This document shows, piece by piece, positions 2,611 through 18,080 of a stretch of 27,112 nt of DNA. Made by a program: the position numbers and the translations under genes. Origin of the DNA: a virus; IMG/VR virus record IMGVR_UViG_3300035703_000370, positions 1 to 27,112 of that record; one strand, given 5' to 3'. Position 1 is the stretch's first letter; the number at the start of each line of letters is the position of its first letter. The notes beneath the pieces were generated by a model that ran no database searches, had not been told where the DNA came from, and worked only from the letters and a program-made list of their open reading frames with translations.

Positions 2611-3060
2611 TCATTTACCCGGCCAACGCTCCAAGAGCGACCTTACTGATTCGACATGTCGATCAGCCGTTTCCGAAACTGCTCGACCTTCAGCTTCCAA
2701 TTCTCGGAGTATGTCTGAGATGGCAGCGGCTCGATCAGGGCAGGTGGCGGGGGAGGTTCGGGACATTTCAACGGCACGCCCGAGGTCGTGGCGCAGCCCG
2801 TCAGCAACAAGGCGGGCACGCTCAGTATCACGGCGAAGATTCTGCTGCCGCTGTGCGGATGCCTGCTCTGACTTCCTTGCCTGCTTCGCATATTCCTGCT
2901 CCCTTTGTCGGGCTGCATTTTCCGCTTCCGCCTGCATCTGAGCAATACGCTTGTCGTATTTATTGGCCTGCCACTGCCAAGCAAGTGCGCCACCTGAGCC
3001 AATTCCGGCAAGCGCTGCGATGACGGCCCCGACTACGGCAAGGTTCACTGCCCCAAACAT
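2611..3060 (-). CDS. Rz: Rz-like inner-membrane spanin (i-spanin)
   Basis: 149 aa from the ATG at 3060, which has GAGGA nine bases upstream and overlaps the endolysin end by 16 bases. An in-frame upstream ATG at 3147 lies well inside the endolysin gene and would destroy the N-terminal anchor arrangement. Residues about 5-28 form one hydrophobic segment (NLAVVGAVIAALAGIGSGGA). A long charged coiled coil follows (about 30-100, rich in Q, E, K, R and A) with a periplasmic C-terminal part. Known role of the family: the i-spanin pairs with an outer-membrane lipoprotein to fuse the two membranes in the last step of Gram-negative lysis. The lipoprotein partner is encoded inside this gene in another frame, which strongly supports the call. 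Confidence 0.85.
   Translation of the reverse strand: MFGAVNLAVVGAVIAALAGIGSGGALAWQWQANKYDKRIAQMQAEAENAARQREQEYAKQARKSEQASAQRQQNLRRDTERARLVADGLRHDLGRAVEMSRTSPATCPDRAAAISDILRELEAEGRAVSETADRHVESVRSLLERWPGK
2643..2891 (-). CDS. Rz1: Rz1-like outer-membrane lipoprotein spanin (o-spanin), nested in Rz
   Basis: 82 aa, wholly inside the Rz-like gene in a different frame on the same strand. I chose the ATG at 2891: GGGAG and AGGA lie just upstream, and it gives a normal lipoprotein signal, with a basic N-terminus (residues 1-17), a hydrophobic core (IFAVILSVPALLL) and a lipobox LLTGC with the lipidated Cys at residue 33. The mature part is short and proline-rich (CPEPPPPPALIEPLPSQ), typical of Rz1 proteins. 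In-frame ATGs at 2918 and 3011 would add a charged extension that disrupts the signal. Family role: it spans the periplasm with the i-spanin to disrupt the outer membrane. Both Rz and this frame must remain open, which constrains the DNA. Confidence 0.85.
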   Translation of the reverse strand: MRSRQGSQSRHPHSGSRIFAVILSVPALLLTGCATTSGVPLKCPEPPPPPALIEPLPSQTYSENWKLKVEQFRKRLIDMSNQ

Positions 3061-3527
3061 GTGGCGTATTCCTCTTGGCGGCGCTTGGTCAGCCCGGGCA
3101 GTACAACGCCTTGCTGTCGGTTCCAACGCAGGAGTTCGGAGCACCATTCACCCCCGGCGTTCAGTTTCTTGACCAGTGTGCTGCCGCAGGCGTTTCTCAG
3201 TCCCACGTTGTACGCCCAAGACACAAGCGCCGACCACTCATAGGGGTACAGCATGGCGTCCTCGTTGATGCACTTTCGAAGACCGTCCTCAAACTCACCC
3301 GCACGGGCAAGCAACTGCACCAAGGCTTTCTCAACCGTGGTCTTGTCGCCGGGTTTAACCCCGTCAGTCTCCCCAAACCCAATGGTGCTGATGCCGCGTG
3401 ACTTTTCGTTCGGTGTTGCGTAGTACGCATCACTGCGGTAGCCCTCATGGATCGCCATGCCAACCAAGGCGGACGCACTCAGCGTCAGGGCCGCGACCTT
3501 CACCCTGTACGAGTTCTTCTCAGACAT
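3045..3527 (-). CDS. SAR endolysin, GH24 lysozyme-type
   Basis: 160 aa from the ATG at 3527, which overlaps the holin stop by 8 bases. A longer frame opening at 3614 runs back into the holin gene. Residues about 9-25 (VKVAALTLSASALVGMA) are a weakly hydrophobic, Ala/Ser-rich segment, as in signal-anchor-release endolysins that are first tethered to the inner membrane and activated on release. The muramidase core follows: E28 in HEGY is the predicted catalytic glutamate and STIGFGET (47-54) is the typical GH24 strand carrying the conserved threonine. WAYNVG (104-109) and RWNRQQGVVLPGLTKRRQEE (134-153) match later conserved parts of the family. Cysteines occur at 86, 114, 129 and 157; disulphide exchange could control activation, but that is not established here. 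Role: cleaves peptidoglycan. Confidence 0.92.
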   Translation of the reverse strand: MSEKNSYRVKVAALTLSASALVGMAIHEGYRSDAYYATPNEKSRGISTIGFGETDGVKPGDKTTVEKALVQLLARAGEFEDGLRKCINEDAMLYPYEWSALVSWAYNVGLRNACGSTLVKKLNAGGEWCSELLRWNRQQGVVLPGLTKRRQEEYATCLGQ

Positions 3528-3735
3528 CTTTCTGCGCCACAAGGCGGGAGACGAACGCACCGGCAACCGCAAGGCCCGACAACACCGCGAAGGTGCGGGG
3601 CGGGAAAGACTCACTGAAGAACGGCAGCATTACCTCCACGCAGGTAAACGCGAAGGCCAGAGCCATCAGGCGAACCGACCACGCCTTGCGGACGATCTGT
3701 TTCCAGTTGGGGGAGAAGTCTATCTTGGGCTTCAC
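3520..3735 (-). CDS. Two-transmembrane holin
   Basis: 71 aa starting with GTG at 3735; the start overlaps the previous stop (GTGA). It has a short charged N-terminus with NWKQIVRKAWS, then two hydrophobic stretches: about 21-40 (VRLMALAFAFTCVEVMLPFF) and about 47-66 (RTFAVLSGLAVAGAFVSRLV), ending VAQKDV. This layout and sequence resemble small phage holins found before endolysins in proteobacterial phages (I recall the DUF7940-type family, not checked). Next to a SAR endolysin it may act as a pinholin that collapses the membrane potential and releases the endolysin, or as a classic large-hole holin; the sequence does not decide. Position at the head of holin-endolysin-spanin supports the call. 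Confidence 0.82.
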   Translation of the reverse strand: MKPKIDFSPNWKQIVRKAWSVRLMALAFAFTCVEVMLPFFSESFPPRTFAVLSGLAVAGAFVSRLVAQKDV

Positions 3736-4355
3736 GGTGCAGGCTCAGGAGCCGGAGGCGCGGGCTCAGGCGCGGGCTCAGGCGTTGGTTCGGGTGTTGG
3801 TTCGGGTGTTGGTTCGGGTGTTGGTTCGGGTGTTGGTTCAGGTGTTGGTTCAGGTGTTGGTTCAGGTGTTGGTTCGGGTGTTGGTTCGGGCTGAACCTCA
3901 TCAGCCCACAACAGCGCAGGCAGTTCCGCTTCGATGTCCGCATATCCGGCAGGCATCTCGCGCTCACCGGCAAGCACTTGACCCAAGATTGCGTAGAGCG
4001 CAGCCCATGTCAGGTCGCGCAACTCCACCGCACGCTGACCCTCTGCCCTGAACTTCTCAACCGTTGACGTTGCGTAGGTGGCAGCAGACAGGATGCCGTC
4101 GTAGTTGCGTGTCTGAGCGAACGCATCGAGTCGGGACTGCACCGCAGCGACGATTTCGGTTTGAATCTGCTCGGGCGTCTTGGTTGGAACAGGCTCGGTA
4201 AATGTGGGAGCCATCGGGAGATTGGGCGCATACACCCACTCCCCGAGGTTCCACACCCAATCCGAACTCGGCTCTGGCGGGGCGGCATCCGTGGAATTCG
4301 CCGTGGAGTCGGTTTCCCCGGCGTAGCGCCCATAAGCGTCAAATGCGTACATCAT
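3732..4355 (-). CDS. Tail-fibre-associated protein with PEPT-repeat tail
   Basis: 207 aa. The ATG at 4355 overlaps the preceding stop as ATGA and has GAGG a few bases upstream. The N-terminus (MMYAFDAYGRYAGETD, then WVWNLGEWVYAPNLP) resembles small proteins encoded right after tail-fibre genes, often called fibre assembly or attachment proteins. Residues about 60-145 are helical and include EQIQTEIVAAVQSRLDAFAQ, a pattern also found in such proteins. The last 50 or so residues are nine PEPT units followed by PEPA variants: an extended proline-rich, acidic rod. The matching DNA is a 12-base tandem repeat. Role as a fibre chaperone or accessory is inferred from position and the N-terminal pattern; the function of the rod is unknown. 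Confidence 0.7.
   Translation of the reverse strand: MMYAFDAYGRYAGETDSTANSTDAAPPEPSSDWVWNLGEWVYAPNLPMAPTFTEPVPTKTPEQIQTEIVAAVQSRLDAFAQTRNYDGILSAATYATSTVEKFRAEGQRAVELRDLTWAALYAILGQVLAGEREMPAGYADIEAELPALLWADEVQPEPTPEPTPEPTPEPTPEPTPEPTPEPTPEPTPEPTPEPAPEPAPPAPEPAP
3787..3890 (+). repeat. 12-base tandem repeat encoding PEPT units
   Basis: Eight full 12-base units plus a partial ninth. On the plus strand the unit is GGTTCGGGTGTT, with three consecutive copies (3835-3870) carrying GGTTCAGGTGTT instead. On the minus strand each unit encodes Pro-Glu-Pro-Thr, and the variant only changes CCC to CCT for proline. The unit is a multiple of three, so gain or loss of copies keeps the gene in frame. Near-identity between copies points to recent slippage or unequal recombination. 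Confidence 0.93.
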
Positions 4356-6037
4356 GCCAACCTCATGTATGCGGTTGTGCCACTGCGGATCGGGCTGATA
4401 GAACTTGCGGTCAACGCGTACGACTGCGGGCCAGTAAAGTTCGCCGGAACTAATTGATCGCTCAAACTTCCGTTAATACTATTTTGCGACATGGCAGTAA
4501 AATAAAAATATCCCGACCCAACATTTATACTTCGAATAAGCGCCGCCTGTTGCTGTGTTGCCCCCAATGACGCTACTACGTTTATATACTCCCAAGTCAC
4601 ACCATTATCGGTTGACACAATCGCACCACTGCTATTGCCACTGTTGAACACATTCGCGTTAACCACGATACGACCGTTCAAAACTGCGGCCCTGTTATAT
4701 AGTGCGTTAAATGTCTGATAATTTTTAATAGACCTGACTACGAACGTAACGCCGTCCGAAGTAATGGCGATTTGGCCTGATGTGTAGAAAATAAATAGCC
4801 TTGAATCAAGCGCCCAAGCAGAGCGTGGATTGCCGCTAACTCCAGTAATCGGCGGGAGCGGAGTTACTGTCGCAAAATCGTTCGTCGTTATGAATGCCGA
4901 CTGAGTACTAAGGTCTACTAGCGCTCCTATTGAACCAGTCCACGCGACAGAATCGTCGGCAGTAAAAGCAAATGCAACAGAGCGGGTTGTAAAGCTTTCT
5001 CCGAAGTTAGTTGTGACGTTGTATACCGAATTTCCGTTTATGTTAAGTACTAAAAACTTAGAGGGCACACTGGCGTTGTTTACATACCGCGCACCTCCAC
5101 CCGATGTCGGCGCACCGGCTGAATTCGTCCAAGTCAAGCCGCCGTCCGTGCTATACCGATTGACCCCGGCAATGCTGAAGTAGGCATTGCTGCCTTCGGA
5201 TTTCATCCAAGCATATCGTTGCGCGTCTGACCCTATGCTCACATTGAGATTGCCTAAAACAGCCGAGGTAGCGTTGTTGCCCACATCAGAGCCGAAGCCT
5301 GTTGTGCTTGAAGACGCCACCAATACGGTATTTCCAGCATTATTGCCAATAGTAATAACACGATTGGCGCATCTAAGTTGCCAAGTCGCATTAGCGCTGT
5401 TTCCGGCGTAAATCTCCCCGAGCGGACTTGCGAAGTAGTTAATTTGGTTTAGTGTACCTCGGCTAATGCCAAATTCGCCCAAACTATTCGCACTGAACAA
5501 CCCAAGCGATAGTGACCCTTCAACCCATGTGTTACCGCCATCTGTGGAAGTCGAATAGATCAGATTTCCATTGCTCACACCGCGCACCGCAACAAACTGC
5601 GATGGGTTTGAAGGGTTCACATATGCTTGGGCATAAATGTTTGTTGTACTAAGCCGCCGAGCCGCCACCCCCGACGGGGAAATTACCAACGCAGTAGCCC
5701 CATCAAGCATTACTAAAGCATTGCCTTGAGAGATCGGGATTGGATCGAAAATCGGTGCATAAGGTGTTGATACGGCAGCGGATGCGTTAAGGTTCCTTGT
5801 CAACGGCACATCCCCAATCGAGCGAAGAAAGCCCGTATTGCTTGTGTAGGAATCAAGAAATGACCCCACCGCCGAAGAAACTTCAGTCTTTGCAATCCAC
5901 GAATAGCCGTTATTGAGCGCTCCGTATGTGCGTCCGCTTACGGTCGTCAGGTTGCCCGAATTTGGGCGGTCTTCAATACTCCCGACCCCCAAATCCTCTG
6001 CGGTGCCGCTGCCCTGCTGTCCAACATAACTTGGCAT
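4352..6037 (-). CDS. BNR/Asp-box beta-propeller tail protein (putative receptor binding)
   Basis: 561 aa; ATG at 6037 with AAGGAG eight bases upstream. It carries several Asp-box (BNR) motifs of type S-x-D-x-G-x-T-W: STDGGNTW (about 164-171), STDGGLTW (about 296-303), STDNGVTW (about 475-482), and weaker ones near TNFGESF (344) and TSDGVTF (426). Spacing and Ser/Thr/Asn-rich strands fit a sialidase-like propeller fold. Catalytic sialidase residues cannot be assigned, so binding rather than cleavage is the safer call. The N-terminus (about 1-95) lacks these motifs and may be the virion anchor. The DNA is visibly more AT-rich than the flanks, with many codons ending in A or T, suggesting separate acquisition. 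Neighbours are another propeller protein upstream and the fibre-accessory gene downstream. Confidence 0.78.
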   Translation of the reverse strand: MPSYVGQQGSGTAEDLGVGSIEDRPNSGNLTTVSGRTYGALNNGYSWIAKTEVSSAVGSFLDSYTSNTGFLRSIGDVPLTRNLNASAAVSTPYAPIFDPIPISQGNALVMLDGATALVISPSGVAARRLSTTNIYAQAYVNPSNPSQFVAVRGVSNGNLIYSTSTDGGNTWVEGSLSLGLFSANSLGEFGISRGTLNQINYFASPLGEIYAGNSANATWQLRCANRVITIGNNAGNTVLVASSSTTGFGSDVGNNATSAVLGNLNVSIGSDAQRYAWMKSEGSNAYFSIAGVNRYSTDGGLTWTNSAGAPTSGGGARYVNNASVPSKFLVLNINGNSVYNVTTNFGESFTTRSVAFAFTADDSVAWTGSIGALVDLSTQSAFITTNDFATVTPLPPITGVSGNPRSAWALDSRLFIFYTSGQIAITSDGVTFVVRSIKNYQTFNALYNRAAVLNGRIVVNANVFNSGNSSGAIVSTDNGVTWEYINVVASLGATQQQAALIRSINVGSGYFYFTAMSQNSINGSLSDQLVPANFTGPQSYALTASSISPIRSGTTAYMRLA

Positions 6038-6049
6038 CTCAATATCTCC

Positions 6050-7837
6050 TTAAACCGTTTCTTCGAAACCGCGAACTTGGATGGTCACATCCCCTGCGTC
6101 GTCCGGCAGAGAAATGACAATGGTGTCACCCGCGTCCAGAACCAACCCCGTGCGCTCAAATGTCTGCGCCACCGCCAGAGCCAACTTGTCCAGAGTGCTG
6201 TCCGGCAGCAAAAGGAAGTCGTCAATCTGCGTGTTGATGGCAGTCTGTGTGGCAGGGGGCAGCGTTTGCTGCGTGAGTGCAGTCGCAGCAATGGTTGTGG
6301 TGGGCACCGTGATCGCCGTGGCTGTGCGGAACTGCACCGATCCGTTATTCGACAATGCGCCCGAATCATCAAGGTAAGCACCGATCAGCATATTTCGGTT
6401 GGGGGCGCTCACGCTTCGGGAGCCAGAACTTAGGGTCTGATTTACCGTGACCGAAACCCCACGGTAGGTGTACACAAACGGTCGCGGATTGCCCGTCACT
6501 GTGTAGTTCTGTGTGTACGTCGTGGCGCTGTTTGCGCCGCCAAGACTTATGGCAACTCCGAAGCCGAACTGATCACTTGATGCCGGAGCGGGGTTATCTA
6601 TTGTCTCAATCAAAGTCCAAGCCGTGCCGCTTCGGGTATACAAATACGCCCTTCCTTGGTCAACCACGGCATCGTTAAACAGATACGAACCCACCAACAG
6701 ATTACCTGCGGAGTCCATTGCAAGCCCGGTACCGAAATTGGAGTTGGTCTGCGCCGTTGGGTTCGCTATGTCTTGCAACACCGAAGTCGGTGTTGCTGTA
6801 GAGTATGTATATACGCGCCCCGTGTTGCTGTTCCCGTTAAACCCCTCAGCACCAATAGCGAAAAATGTTCCGGTCTTGTCGCATGCTACGGTGTATCCAA
6901 ACTTGTCTTGGTTATTGTTCGGGTTTGCAATGTTTGCCGTTAGAGTGTTTACGAATGCCCCGTAATAATATGCCCTGCCTGTATTACTGCCGCTAGGATT
7001 TGCGTATGCCCCAACAAGAACCCGCCCATCAGACCAACATGCCACTGAAAAACCGTACCTATCATTGTTACCACCGGTAGGGTTCGTAAAAGTTACTTGG
7101 AGCGTATTACCCGTAGATACCCTGTATCCGTAGGCGCGCCCTATTGCGCCACCGGCGCTAAACCCATCTGAGCCGATGACGATAAAGTCACCGGCGATTG
7201 CAACTGACCGACCAAAGGTGTCTGACGCACCCCCGTTCGGATTGGTGAATGTAGCGGCCAGACTCCAAGTGGTTCCGCTTCGCGTGTACCTGTACGCCCT
7301 ACCGTTATTAGTTGCCTGAGTGTCGTCGTCAAACGCGCCGACGATGATGTTATCCCCGCTGATGGCAACAGCGGAGCCGTAGGTGGAGTTTGGATTGTTT
7401 GCCGGGTCGGTAAGCGTTTGCTGAAGTGTCCACGCGGTACCGTCATAGAAGTAAATGAGTACCTTACCGAGAACGCCACCCACACCGTAGCCAAGAACTG
7501 CGTAATCCCCATCAAGCGCAACAGCGTAGCCCAGTTGGTTATTGGAGGCGTCCCCGTTGACCGTCAGTACACTAGCCGCTGCATTGAACCCGGTTGTCGT
7601 CGGCAACAGCGCGAGATTGCCTGCGTCCAGATTCTGAGTGTCGTTGATACCATCAAACGGCACTGCCGACAGGTTTACGTCGTCGTTCGCCAACTGATTC
7701 GATGGTAGTGCAGCCAGAGCCATCGTGGAAGCAGCGTTGGCATACGCCACAGAACTGACCGTAGCCCGCTTGCCCGCAGGAACGGTGTAAACCTTCTGGT
7801 AGCCGCGCCCGGTGATTTTGGTTTTTCCAAGTGCCAT
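6050..7837 (-). CDS. FG-GAP-type beta-propeller tail protein with split terminal domain
   Basis: 595 aa; ATG at 7837 with AAGGA six bases upstream. Residues about 95-500 contain around seven repeats of about 50 aa of FG-GAP/integrin-propeller type: starts such as LGYAVAL (102), YGSAVAI (153), FGRSVAI (208), YGFSVAC (261), FGYTVAC (313) and FGFGVAI (424), each followed by an IIVGA-like strand, an Asp/Asn-rich loop and GRAYxY. The ends look like two halves of one small phage beta domain: GYQKVYTVPAGKRATVSSVAYAN at the N-terminus and ERTGLVLDAGDTIVIS with VTIQVRGFEE at the C-terminus. A helical stretch (about 525-560) precedes the latter. Likely a virion surface protein for host or surface binding (inferred). 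Base composition in the propeller part is lower in GC than the flanks. Confidence 0.8.
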   Translation of the reverse strand: MALGKTKITGRGYQKVYTVPAGKRATVSSVAYANAASTMALAALPSNQLANDDVNLSAVPFDGINDTQNLDAGNLALLPTTTGFNAAASVLTVNGDASNNQLGYAVALDGDYAVLGYGVGGVLGKVLIYFYDGTAWTLQQTLTDPANNPNSTYGSAVAISGDNIIVGAFDDDTQATNNGRAYRYTRSGTTWSLAATFTNPNGGASDTFGRSVAIAGDFIVIGSDGFSAGGAIGRAYGYRVSTGNTLQVTFTNPTGGNNDRYGFSVACWSDGRVLVGAYANPSGSNTGRAYYYGAFVNTLTANIANPNNNQDKFGYTVACDKTGTFFAIGAEGFNGNSNTGRVYTYSTATPTSVLQDIANPTAQTNSNFGTGLAMDSAGNLLVGSYLFNDAVVDQGRAYLYTRSGTAWTLIETIDNPAPASSDQFGFGVAISLGGANSATTYTQNYTVTGNPRPFVYTYRGVSVTVNQTLSSGSRSVSAPNRNMLIGAYLDDSGALSNNGSVQFRTATAITVPTTTIAATALTQQTLPPATQTAINTQIDDFLLLPDSTLDKLALAVAQTFERTGLVLDAGDTIVISLPDDAGDVTIQVRGFEETV

Positions 7838-7846
7838 GATGAATCC

Positions 7847-8833
7847 TTAGAAACTGGAGAAGAAGAAAGCCTTGGCGTTGCTGACCTCGGGCTTGGGCAA
7901 GATCACATCGCCCGCGCCAAGCAGGCTCTGACCGTCGATGGTTTTGAGTGGTGACCAGAATGAGTTGGTGCCGTCGTTCGTCGGTACATACCCTGCCACC
8001 GTCCCGTCCACATCAGGCAGAGCAGCTTGGAAGGCCAAGCCCATTGCGAAGGCGGTTGTAGCGATCTTGGTGCTGTTGTCCGTCAAGGGCTGCGTGACGG
8101 CGAACTGGGCATTTACCGCATTGGTCGCGTTCTCTGTTGCTCCAGATGTAAGCGCGTAAGTGGCCGTTGCCGCGTTGCCGCCGATACTCAGAGCGTTGGC
8201 AGTCCCCGTCAGGCCCGTTCCCGCGCCACTGAAGGACAACCCCGAGACTGCACCCGAGAATGTGCCCGTGGTGCCGTTGACCGAGCCGCCGCTCAAGTTG
8301 GTCGCCGTTGTCGCGGTCGTCGCCATCGTCGCCGTATCAGCGGTCAGCGCCGTTGTCGCTGTCTGCGCGTTGCCCACCAGATTGCCGGTGAAGGTCGTCG
8401 CAGTGACGGATGTAAACGATACGCTGCCCCCGAGTTGGGCCACCTTGACGAAATCCGTGCTGACCCACGCCACCAACGCACGCTCACCTGCGGCCAGAGT
8501 CGCCCCGGTTGTTGGGCCTGTCCCGCGTACCGTCACCGTGAAAGTCGGAGAAGTGTTGATCACCACATAGGTCTTGCTCGTGGCAGGAACCGTGATCGTG
8601 ATGTTGGCCGTGTGACCCGAGGCGATCAGGATGGCGTACTGGGAAGACGTTGCCCCCAAGGGCATGTCCATCGTCGTATTGAGCGTGACACTGCCGCCCA
8701 CCACCAAGAACCCGGCGATGGACGCCTCGACATACTTGGTCAGGTTGTCGGAGAGTATGTCGCCCCAAGTCCCCGTTAGTTCACCAGTCGTCGGTATGAC
8801 AAGCCCAAGAAGCGGCGTGTAAGTAGAGGACAT
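7847..8833 (-). CDS. Tail fibre protein
   Basis: 328 aa; ATG at 8833 with GAGGT five bases upstream. The N-terminus (YTPLLGLVIPTTGELTGTWGD, then LSDNLTKYVEASIAG) is the widespread phage fibre start in which a Gly-Thr-Trp-Gly element precedes a short helix. The middle (about 135-225) is rich in Thr, Ala and Gly with repeated GNAATAT-like and VTATTFTGNLVGNAQTAT elements typical of fibrous trimeric shafts. The end (IDGQSLLGAGDVILP near 297-312) matches a common fibre tip. No enzymatic or chaperone domain is seen. It lies first in the host-contact module, upstream of the two propeller genes, so it may be the fibre to which they attach or an alternative receptor binder; that is inference. Confidence 0.85.
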   Translation of the reverse strand: MSSTYTPLLGLVIPTTGELTGTWGDILSDNLTKYVEASIAGFLVVGGSVTLNTTMDMPLGATSSQYAILIASGHTANITITVPATSKTYVVINTSPTFTVTVRGTGPTTGATLAAGERALVAWVSTDFVKVAQLGGSVSFTSVTATTFTGNLVGNAQTATTALTADTATMATTATTATNLSGGSVNGTTGTFSGAVSGLSFSGAGTGLTGTANALSIGGNAATATYALTSGATENATNAVNAQFAVTQPLTDNSTKIATTAFAMGLAFQAALPDVDGTVAGYVPTNDGTNSFWSPLKTIDGQSLLGAGDVILPKPEVSNAKAFFFSSF

Positions 8834-9262: not shown

Positions 9263-9877
9263 TCAGTTGGCCCCTTTGCGGATGTTTTCCTCGGCGGGGA
9301 TCACCTGTAGGTTTGTCGGAACATGCAGTCCCGAAACACGCTTGCCGCGCAACGGCAGAATATGGTCGACATGCCACGAGAACCCAAACAGCCGCGTCCT
9401 GATCGCCGCCAACTCGTAGGCTTGTCGAATCATCCACTTATCGTCGTCGCTCAACCAATCCGGTGTTCTGCGAAGTTTATCGCTTCTGCGCCGGGCTGTA
9501 TCCGCATTTTTAGCCCCGGGGTTGGTTTCCCTAAACACTTTTGAATACTCTCTTTGAATTCCGGGATGCCGCGCCCGCCAATCCTGACAAAACGAGAGTA
9601 TTTTTTGCTTGTTGCGCTCGTAGTAGCGCGACTGAGCAACCCGCTTGTTCTCTACAGCAACCGGATTAAGTTTTGATTTTGCATAATCTTTCTTTTTCTG
9701 AGCCTTGGTTCGCTCGGGGTTGGCTGCTCTGGATCGGCGCAGCGTCGCTTTAGCACACTCTACACACGCCCCAGAAACATACCGCAAGCCCTCAAGTTCC
9801 GGGTGTTTTGGGCACGCGCTTCCATAGCACCTCGAAAGCCCCTGCGCCTTAGCCTCTTGCCTAGAGATCTTATCCAT
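9263..9877 (-). CDS. HNH homing-type endonuclease
   Basis: 204 aa; the ATG at 9877 overlaps the adaptor stop by one base (TAATG). An N-terminal Cys/His cluster (C17, C22, H25, C38, C41) may bind zinc. A long basic stretch (about 45-140, many Lys/Arg) probably contacts DNA. The C-terminus has the HNH core WHVDHILPLRGKRVSGLHV with D171-H172, then N189 in TNLQVIP and N198 in EENIRKG. Free-standing HNH enzymes of this type cut DNA and spread by homing; a packaging role is less likely because this gene is far from the terminase. The body is more AT-rich than its neighbours, consistent with insertion. It sits neatly between two structural genes without disrupting either. Confidence 0.87.
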   Translation of the reverse strand: MDKISRQEAKAQGLSRCYGSACPKHPELEGLRYVSGACVECAKATLRRSRAANPERTKAQKKKDYAKSKLNPVAVENKRVAQSRYYERNKQKILSFCQDWRARHPGIQREYSKVFRETNPGAKNADTARRRSDKLRRTPDWLSDDDKWMIRQAYELAAIRTRLFGFSWHVDHILPLRGKRVSGLHVPTNLQVIPAEENIRKGAN

Positions 9878-17299: not shown

Positions 17300-18031
17300 T
17301 TATACCTCGGGGGTGGATTCCGCGCAAGCATATTTGAACGACCACCCCTTCATAGGCCCTCGCGTAATTGCCGCGCCAGATTGCAGGGCTCGATTAACTG
17401 TCGGGGGCTTCAGAGCGAGGGTTTCCCGAAGGGACTGGATACTGTCAAATACCTCTGTCCTGCCCTCGGGGTCGGTGACCACAACTGCCTTGCTGACCTT
17501 GGCCCCATGATCCGGGCGCTTCTTTCCGTACCAATAGTTGCCTTCACCGGACAGGGTGGCGCTGATCTTGGCACGGGTGGCGGAAGACACTGGACGCCCT
17601 CGAAGGGTGAGACTGCGCTTGGCTAGCGTCTCGGCAGAGGGTACGCGCCCTTTACCGGCTTCAGATATTCGCCGCTTCGCGTCTGCCGTATGCCTAAGCC
17701 CCCAAGTCGGGCTTGCCTCACCGCTCATACCGAGCATAGGGGCAACTGCATCTACGCCGATGTTGTAGCAATAGTCTTTACCGACATGCTCTTTGAGCCA
17801 CACATTCTCGGCGGCAAGCAAATCGGCGTCCTGCGGCAAGTCCTCAACCACGACAAAAATAAACGCCTGCTCCCCATACTTAACCCATGCCGCTTGCAGG
17901 TGGCGATTGTTGTGTTTGCCAGTACGCAGTTCAGAAAAGTGACGCGTCTTGCGGCGCTTTAAGTCAACGGCGCTGCCGATGTAGAACTTGTTGTTGACGA
18001 TGTTGATGATTTTGTAGATGCCGCGTGCCAT
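17300..18031 (-). CDS. GIY-YIG homing endonuclease with NUMOD domains
   Basis: 243 aa from the ATG at 18031, which has AAGGAG six bases upstream; an in-frame start 11 codons earlier lacks support. The GIY-YIG nuclease (residues 1-90) shows GIY (4-6), YIG (17-19), conserved arginines in DLKRRKTRHF (23-32) and the likely metal-binding glutamate E75 in AAENVWLKEH. NUMOD3-type DNA-binding repeats follow (HTADAKRRISEAGKGR at 114-129, ATRAKISATLSGEGNYWYGKKR at 151-172). An IENR1/NUMOD1-like segment ends the protein (VFDSIQSLRETLALKPPTVNRAL, 194-216). Order and length match free-standing phage homing enzymes of the Seg/I-TevI group. It sits just after the capsid terminator, so capsid expression is not disturbed. 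Confidence 0.92.
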   Translation of the reverse strand: MARGIYKIINIVNNKFYIGSAVDLKRRKTRHFSELRTGKHNNRHLQAAWVKYGEQAFIFVVVEDLPQDADLLAAENVWLKEHVGKDYCYNIGVDAVAPMLGMSGEASPTWGLRHTADAKRRISEAGKGRVPSAETLAKRSLTLRGRPVSSATRAKISATLSGEGNYWYGKKRPDHGAKVSKAVVVTDPEGRTEVFDSIQSLRETLALKPPTVNRALQSGAAITRGPMKGWSFKYACAESTPEV

Positions 18032-18080
18032 TGAGTGCTCCTTGGGGTTCGTCACAGGCAACAACGCCCGCGCTGAACAT

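Follow-up and report, generated by a model that had tools for sequence, protein, structure and literature searches.

A seven-bladed FG-GAP propeller apparently nested in a loop of a small phage jelly roll

Do the two short ends of a 595-residue phage protein belong to a single domain, and what would the complete propeller between them be doing there? The gene lies in a virus record of 27,112 bases that may be a fragment and is here called the window; its terminase is nearest to those of the Pelagibacter phages HTVC027P and HTVC023P (43-44% identity). An earlier note on this DNA had proposed that the ends resemble the start and end of one compact domain, usually encoded contiguously, from which FG-GAP repeats are displayed. 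Our own reading, to which we give a probability of roughly 0.75, is of a virion protein of the tail-fibre module, with the jelly roll held in the particle and the propeller, set into its D-E loop, displayed as an adhesin. The gene, its parts and its neighbours are as follows:

6050..7837, minus strand: whole gene, a putative jelly roll split by a seven-bladed FG-GAP propeller (595 aa; reading frame uninterrupted)
7700..7837, minus strand: N-terminal part of the predicted jelly roll, aa 1-46, comprising strands A-C and the place of D; contains the YTVPAGK motif (profile match; model strands)
7583..7699, minus strand: linker into the insert, aa 47-85 (low model confidence; L131 counterpart much shorter)
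6293..7582, minus strand: seven-bladed FG-GAP_2 propeller, aa 86-515 (Pfam, structure match, FG motif spacing)
6194..6292, minus strand: linker back to the host domain, aa 516-548 (pLDDT mostly below 50)
6050..6193, minus strand: C-terminal part of the predicted jelly roll, aa 549-595, strands E-H, with ERTGLVLDAGD, VRGFEE and the stop codon (profile match)
7847..8833, minus strand: upstream gene, fibre-like, 328 aa, with the aromatic tail VSNAKAFFFSSF at its C-terminus (a tail typical of genes upstream of the small domain)
4352..6037, minus strand: downstream gene, 561 aa, weak BNR/Asp-box repeats, starting MPSY (other split FG-GAP loci start MPAY)

Elsewhere in the window, reading of the sequence points to two probable homing endonuclease genes, both on the minus strand: one of GIY-YIG type at 17300-18064, beside the capsid gene, and one of HNH type at 9263-9877, inside the tail module. 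A probable Rz spanin gene, likewise recognized by reading, occupies 2611-3147 (minus strand), with a lipoprotein-like Rz1 frame embedded at 2643-3011.

The propeller is recognized by both sequence and structure. Pfam family FG-GAP_2 (PF14312) matches the protein with an E-value of 3.1e-40 and 136.6 bits, against a curated cut-off of 23, and five stretches each exceed that cut-off individually in the Pfam scan. FG motifs start at residues 102, 153, 208, 261, 313, 368 and 424, which confirms the earlier count of seven repeats. In an AlphaFold2 model of the full-length protein (mean pLDDT 60.4, pTM 0.60), residues 86-490 match the integrin alpha propeller 7usl_A with a Z of 30.4 (334 residues, 3.4 Å, 14% identity); confidence is about 75 over the propeller and low in blade 7. 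A strand-like stretch near residues 88-94 (ASVLTVNG) precedes the first FG motif, and because its spacing matches the fourth strand of each repeat, it probably closes blade 7, as in other closed propellers. The distance of about 430 residues originally placed between the two ends holds for the propeller itself, but the whole insert spans about 500 residues when the linkers are counted. A helical stretch had also been proposed ahead of the C-terminal half; the model, whose pLDDT is mostly below 50 in this region, shows a helix of just three residues and does not support this element.

To ask what flanks the propeller, we seeded a search with a pattern joining YTVPAGK to ERTG at 39-49 codons. 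This produced two short contiguous proteins, which in turn led to at least 31 loci, of which about 20 code for 102-114-aa proteins; the collection scans were pattern-based, and all locus counts are samples and lower bounds. A profile built from 20 contiguous phage proteins (102-114 aa), with the window protein excluded, matches that protein at both ends. Residues 2-44 align with profile positions 5-46 (24.6 bits) and residues 549-594 with positions 61-104 (22.6 bits), for an E-value of 3e-13 with the window protein searched alone. The two halves are in order and complementary, and jointly cover nearly the full length of the profile. When the ends were shuffled 2000 times, the best score was 4.5 bits for the N-terminal half and 1.6 bits for the C-terminal half, so the likeness to the start and end of one compact, usually contiguous domain stands. 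Motifs from the window seeded the search, a bias favouring the N-terminal half: once YTVPAGK and VLERTG are masked out of the profile, the C-terminal half scores 14.0 bits and the N-terminal half 1.7 bits. Because masking lowers the N-terminal score this far, the assignment of that half rests largely on the YTVPAG motif, plus conservation in relatives.

Contiguous homologues of the terminal halves proved plentiful, with over 100 genes in other phage contigs encoding the small domain by itself (about 102-120 aa); this excludes one of the two outcomes that the earlier note had named as refuting its proposal. The YTVPAG...GFEE domain is contiguous in phrog_11338, phrog_1276 and stand-alone genes, and one contiguous protein has full-length tblastn matches in the named phages P-SSM2 and S-CAM1/3. 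Other searches were less productive. The separate window ends, too short and diverged, gave nothing useful by tblastn against named phages; a close-relative search with one contiguous protein returned only itself; an alignment search with the C-terminal half confirmed contiguous members only; and the 595-aa protein had no match among the PHROGs and FG-GAP_2 alone in Pfam. The small domain also occurs duplicated side by side, as adjacent genes in L140:1847-2499 (minus strand) and within one protein in L214:2-835 (minus strand).

An intact relative, L013 (107 aa), is predicted to fold as a compact eight-stranded jelly roll (pLDDT 97, pTM 0.88) with strands A (3-10), B (16-21), C (26-36), D (42-49), E (60-67), F (72-81), G (86-91) and H (96-106). 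Where the halves of split proteins end sharply, their junctions correspond to L013 residues ~44-61. Because profile positions map one to one on L013 residues near the junction, the insertion is, on the predicted structure, in or next to the D-E loop. The full-length model of the window protein has strands at 6-8, 12-18 and 23-34 in the N-terminal half and at 552-554, 559-567, 572-577 and 584-594 in the C-terminal half, matching A-C and E-H. The model of the whole protein is weak: strands appear at the expected places in both halves and the ends were not seen as separate domains, the other refuting outcome named in the note, but strand D is not formed and the mean pLDDT is 60.4. From the profile matches and the predicted fold of the intact relative, both ends would probably fold as one jelly roll.

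Solved structures among the best matches to L013 include the cement protein of the Helicobacter phage KHP40 (7dou_4; Z 9.0, 98 residues, 2.7 Å), the HFTV1 turret (Z 8.3) and C1q heads (Z about 8), all of jelly-roll type, at Z values only slightly above the level of unrelated models. Among predicted viral structures, counterparts of L013 include numerous phage proteins of ~108 aa as well as cyanophage tail-fibre-like proteins. Searching the domain profile against the sequences of solved structures gave one chance-level match, 8wab (E 0.31).

The nested arrangement recurs in other phages. Three diverged relatives split the domain around FG-GAP_2 repeats: L131 (518 aa), L186 (506 aa) and L285 (562 aa). 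The window protein is 62.8% identical to that of L131 over aa 1-43 and 67.4% at the C-terminal end, compared with 44.0% in the insert. Two contigs from one sample, L002 and L003, are closer, at 95-98% identity over parts of the protein. The bacterial and archaeal genomes searched held no relative with the nested layout. We also looked for the split domain in other phage FG-GAP proteins and rejected it there: the FG-GAP proteins of Vibrio phage nt-1, S-TIM5/66 and LR797314 share about 30% identity with the window protein over the propeller, but the propellers of nt-1, S-TIM66 and LR797314 are not flanked by halves of the small domain. Because these propellers are not nested in it, the propeller would not need this domain for its function, which counts against our reading. 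A further candidate, the Agrobacterium phage Atu_ph07, was considered as a phage keeping the two parts as neighbouring genes and set aside; the tested genes around its FG-GAP gene had no match to the domain.

The same loop is split by other inserts. In the cyanophage proteins of phrog_693 (Syn30, S-MbCM100, S-MS29, S-CREM1), the two halves sit at the ends and surround ~340-550 aa that have no Pfam match above the cut-off and no FG-GAP repeats. The annotation of this family seen here is tail fibre, without mention of a nested layout. In L119:6414-10007 (minus strand), a 1198-aa protein, the halves surround ~1085 aa; searches of Pfam, PHROG and named phages gave it no match. These unrelated inserts in one loop support the earlier suggestion that nesting is a simple way to swap modules.

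Several further proteins begin with the small domain. L074:10010-11263 and L123:6476-7741 have a BNR/Sortilin-like region apparently inserted before the last strand, and L166:2605-4995 has an insert of another kind, apparently at the same point. We set all three aside: the insert seems to lie in a loop later than D-E, a position that the short ends cannot prove.

If the split protein does the contiguous protein's structural job, gene order is the best evidence for it. Among non-identical contiguous genes, 58 of 84 have an upstream neighbour with at least two aromatic residues among its final eight, a feature shared by 101 of 485 other genes. A start of the form M[GAPS]R occurs in the downstream neighbour of 64 of 86, versus 5 of 485; because many of these loci are related, the Fisher values make the association look stronger than it is. 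In the window, the upstream protein ends with the tail NAKAFFFSSF and the downstream protein begins MPSY. Similar tails lie upstream in L131, L186 and L285, with MPAY downstream; L119 has LFYGNL and MSRY, and the phrog_693 loci have FFYAGF or similar, but a downstream start of MSLT or MALT. The upstream pattern fits the window and all these split loci, and in L186 and L285 the upstream gene has matches to tail-fibre families. Display from a loop of an existing virion protein, as first proposed from the sequence, gains support from this position beside tail-fibre genes. The terminal motifs of flanking genes, among them the C-terminal tails AYFFSGF and LAFNYFLN upstream and the starts MGRY, MGRI and MARK downstream, are possibly docking peptides.

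Close relatives reveal a mosaic. The window is 94.8% identical in DNA to L002 over 6820-7935, a stretch that stops shortly after entering the upstream fibre gene at its 3' end, and 94.6% identical to L003 over 5922-6739 (89.5% over 3820-4399). The FG-GAP gene is thus ~95% identical in DNA to both, whereas the flanking fibre and BNR genes are ~50% identical in protein; the BNR proteins of the window and L003 share 48% identity overall, with conserved ends. The other genes in the fetched stretches of L002 and L003 had no match in the window except for a weak one to a lysis gene. Such mosaic divergence fits an exchanged adhesion module, without proving exchange.

The BNR-like protein itself (4352-6037, minus strand) keeps its ends, MPSYVGQQ... 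and ...TAYMRLA, around a diverged middle, and may be a frame around an exchanged propeller. The gene at 3732-4355 (minus strand; 207 aa), with a long run of PTPE repeats, lies next to the BNR gene in L003 too, at 89.5% DNA identity.

Surface display of the propeller, with binding to a host or receptor, is our best reading of these data. The same nesting could instead serve a propeller that is no adhesin but a structural spacer or a decoration, or one whose binding partner comes from a phage or from the environment (polysaccharide or particles, for example). A decorating role is possible given that the intact domain finds its best solved match in a trimeric capsid cement protein. We nevertheless judge this alternative unlikely, as the gene adjoins fibre-like genes, upstream neighbours in the relatives match tail-fibre families, and the mosaic divergence of the neighbours resembles that of adhesion modules.

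It is very improbable that the two ends are separate docking pieces that flank the propeller and resemble parts of the small domain by chance. The strand D missing from the full-length model and the weakness of the N-terminal half without its motif speak for such an arrangement, but complementary, ordered halves that cover nearly the whole profile speak against it, and the same layout appears in L131, L186, L285 and the phrog_693 proteins. Either half alone would also leave jelly-roll strands unpaired.

To place the insertions, we built a tree from contiguous domains and joined flanks; it has 106 columns, is unrooted and is poorly resolved in places. The four FG-GAP rows form one group (100/99) adjoining the contiguous L049 and L005, the phrog_693 proteins form a separate group (100/92) apart from it, and L119 is a long unresolved branch. 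Because the FG-GAP and phrog_693 groups fall apart on this tree of flanks, it suggests at least two independent insertions, with the contiguous form as background. The reverse history, in which the small contiguous protein is derived and most lineages lost large inserts carried by their ancestors, finds room in an unrooted tree of only 106 columns but has the slightest chance of being right, given that contiguous forms are far commoner and surround both split groups and that no Pfam or PHROG family is common to the inserts of different groups.

We therefore return to the displayed adhesin and consider how it might be built. The small jelly roll (~105 aa, encoded alone in most phages having it) would be a structural piece anchored in the fibre assembly and carrying, in its D-E loop, an entire seven-bladed FG-GAP propeller. 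The two termini of a closed propeller lie almost side by side, which would let it sit in a loop while the surrounding jelly roll stays intact; from there it would project from the particle and serve as a surface-binding head. The neighbouring genes encode, upstream, a protein with an aromatic tail and, downstream, a protein with a short conserved N-terminal motif, and the jelly roll may therefore act in the fibre as a joint or connector between the two. A more elaborate version, which we put forward only tentatively, is a plug-in joint: the neighbours' aromatic tail and N-terminal motif would dock on the jelly roll, the D-E slot would have taken up unrelated modules several times, and adhesins would be exchanged either by swapping neighbours or by filling the loop.

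The closest described precedent is the evolved Dit of siphophages of lactic acid bacteria, in which CBMs sit within loops of the Dit galectin domain (PMC7291167). Both follow one principle: a binding module is placed in a loop of a beta-sandwich virion protein that is otherwise conserved, and is displayed although the particle need not be rebuilt. Host domain and insert differ, however, the evolved Dit combining a distal-tail galectin domain with a CBM and the window protein a jelly roll encoded between fibre genes with a seven-bladed FG-GAP propeller. Nor is the window protein a Dit; Pfam and PHROG scans find no Dit core domain in it, and its insert is an FG-GAP_2 propeller rather than a CBM. 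Nearer in the host domain are the cyanophage phrog_693 tail fibres, which split the same small domain at the same loop around a different insert. The KHP40 trimeric cement protein (7dou) shares the jelly-roll fold of the intact domain but is a capsid protein, with no sequence similarity detectable in the solved-structure search. Text searches of the open-access literature found no description of the nested arrangement.

Little is known about the way in which phages of uncultured aquatic hosts trade the parts that recognize the host. The presence of different inserts in the same loop in other phages suggests a natural slot for such exchange. Annotation misses adhesins of this kind because ordinary domain searches need longer stretches than these halves, and the phrog_693 proteins are simply called tail fibres. 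The small domain is widespread, and its insertion loop is defined and seems to have been used independently at least twice; this would provide a testable rule for finding such adhesins, and the conserved motifs of the two neighbouring genes may offer a second handle on how fibre parts connect.
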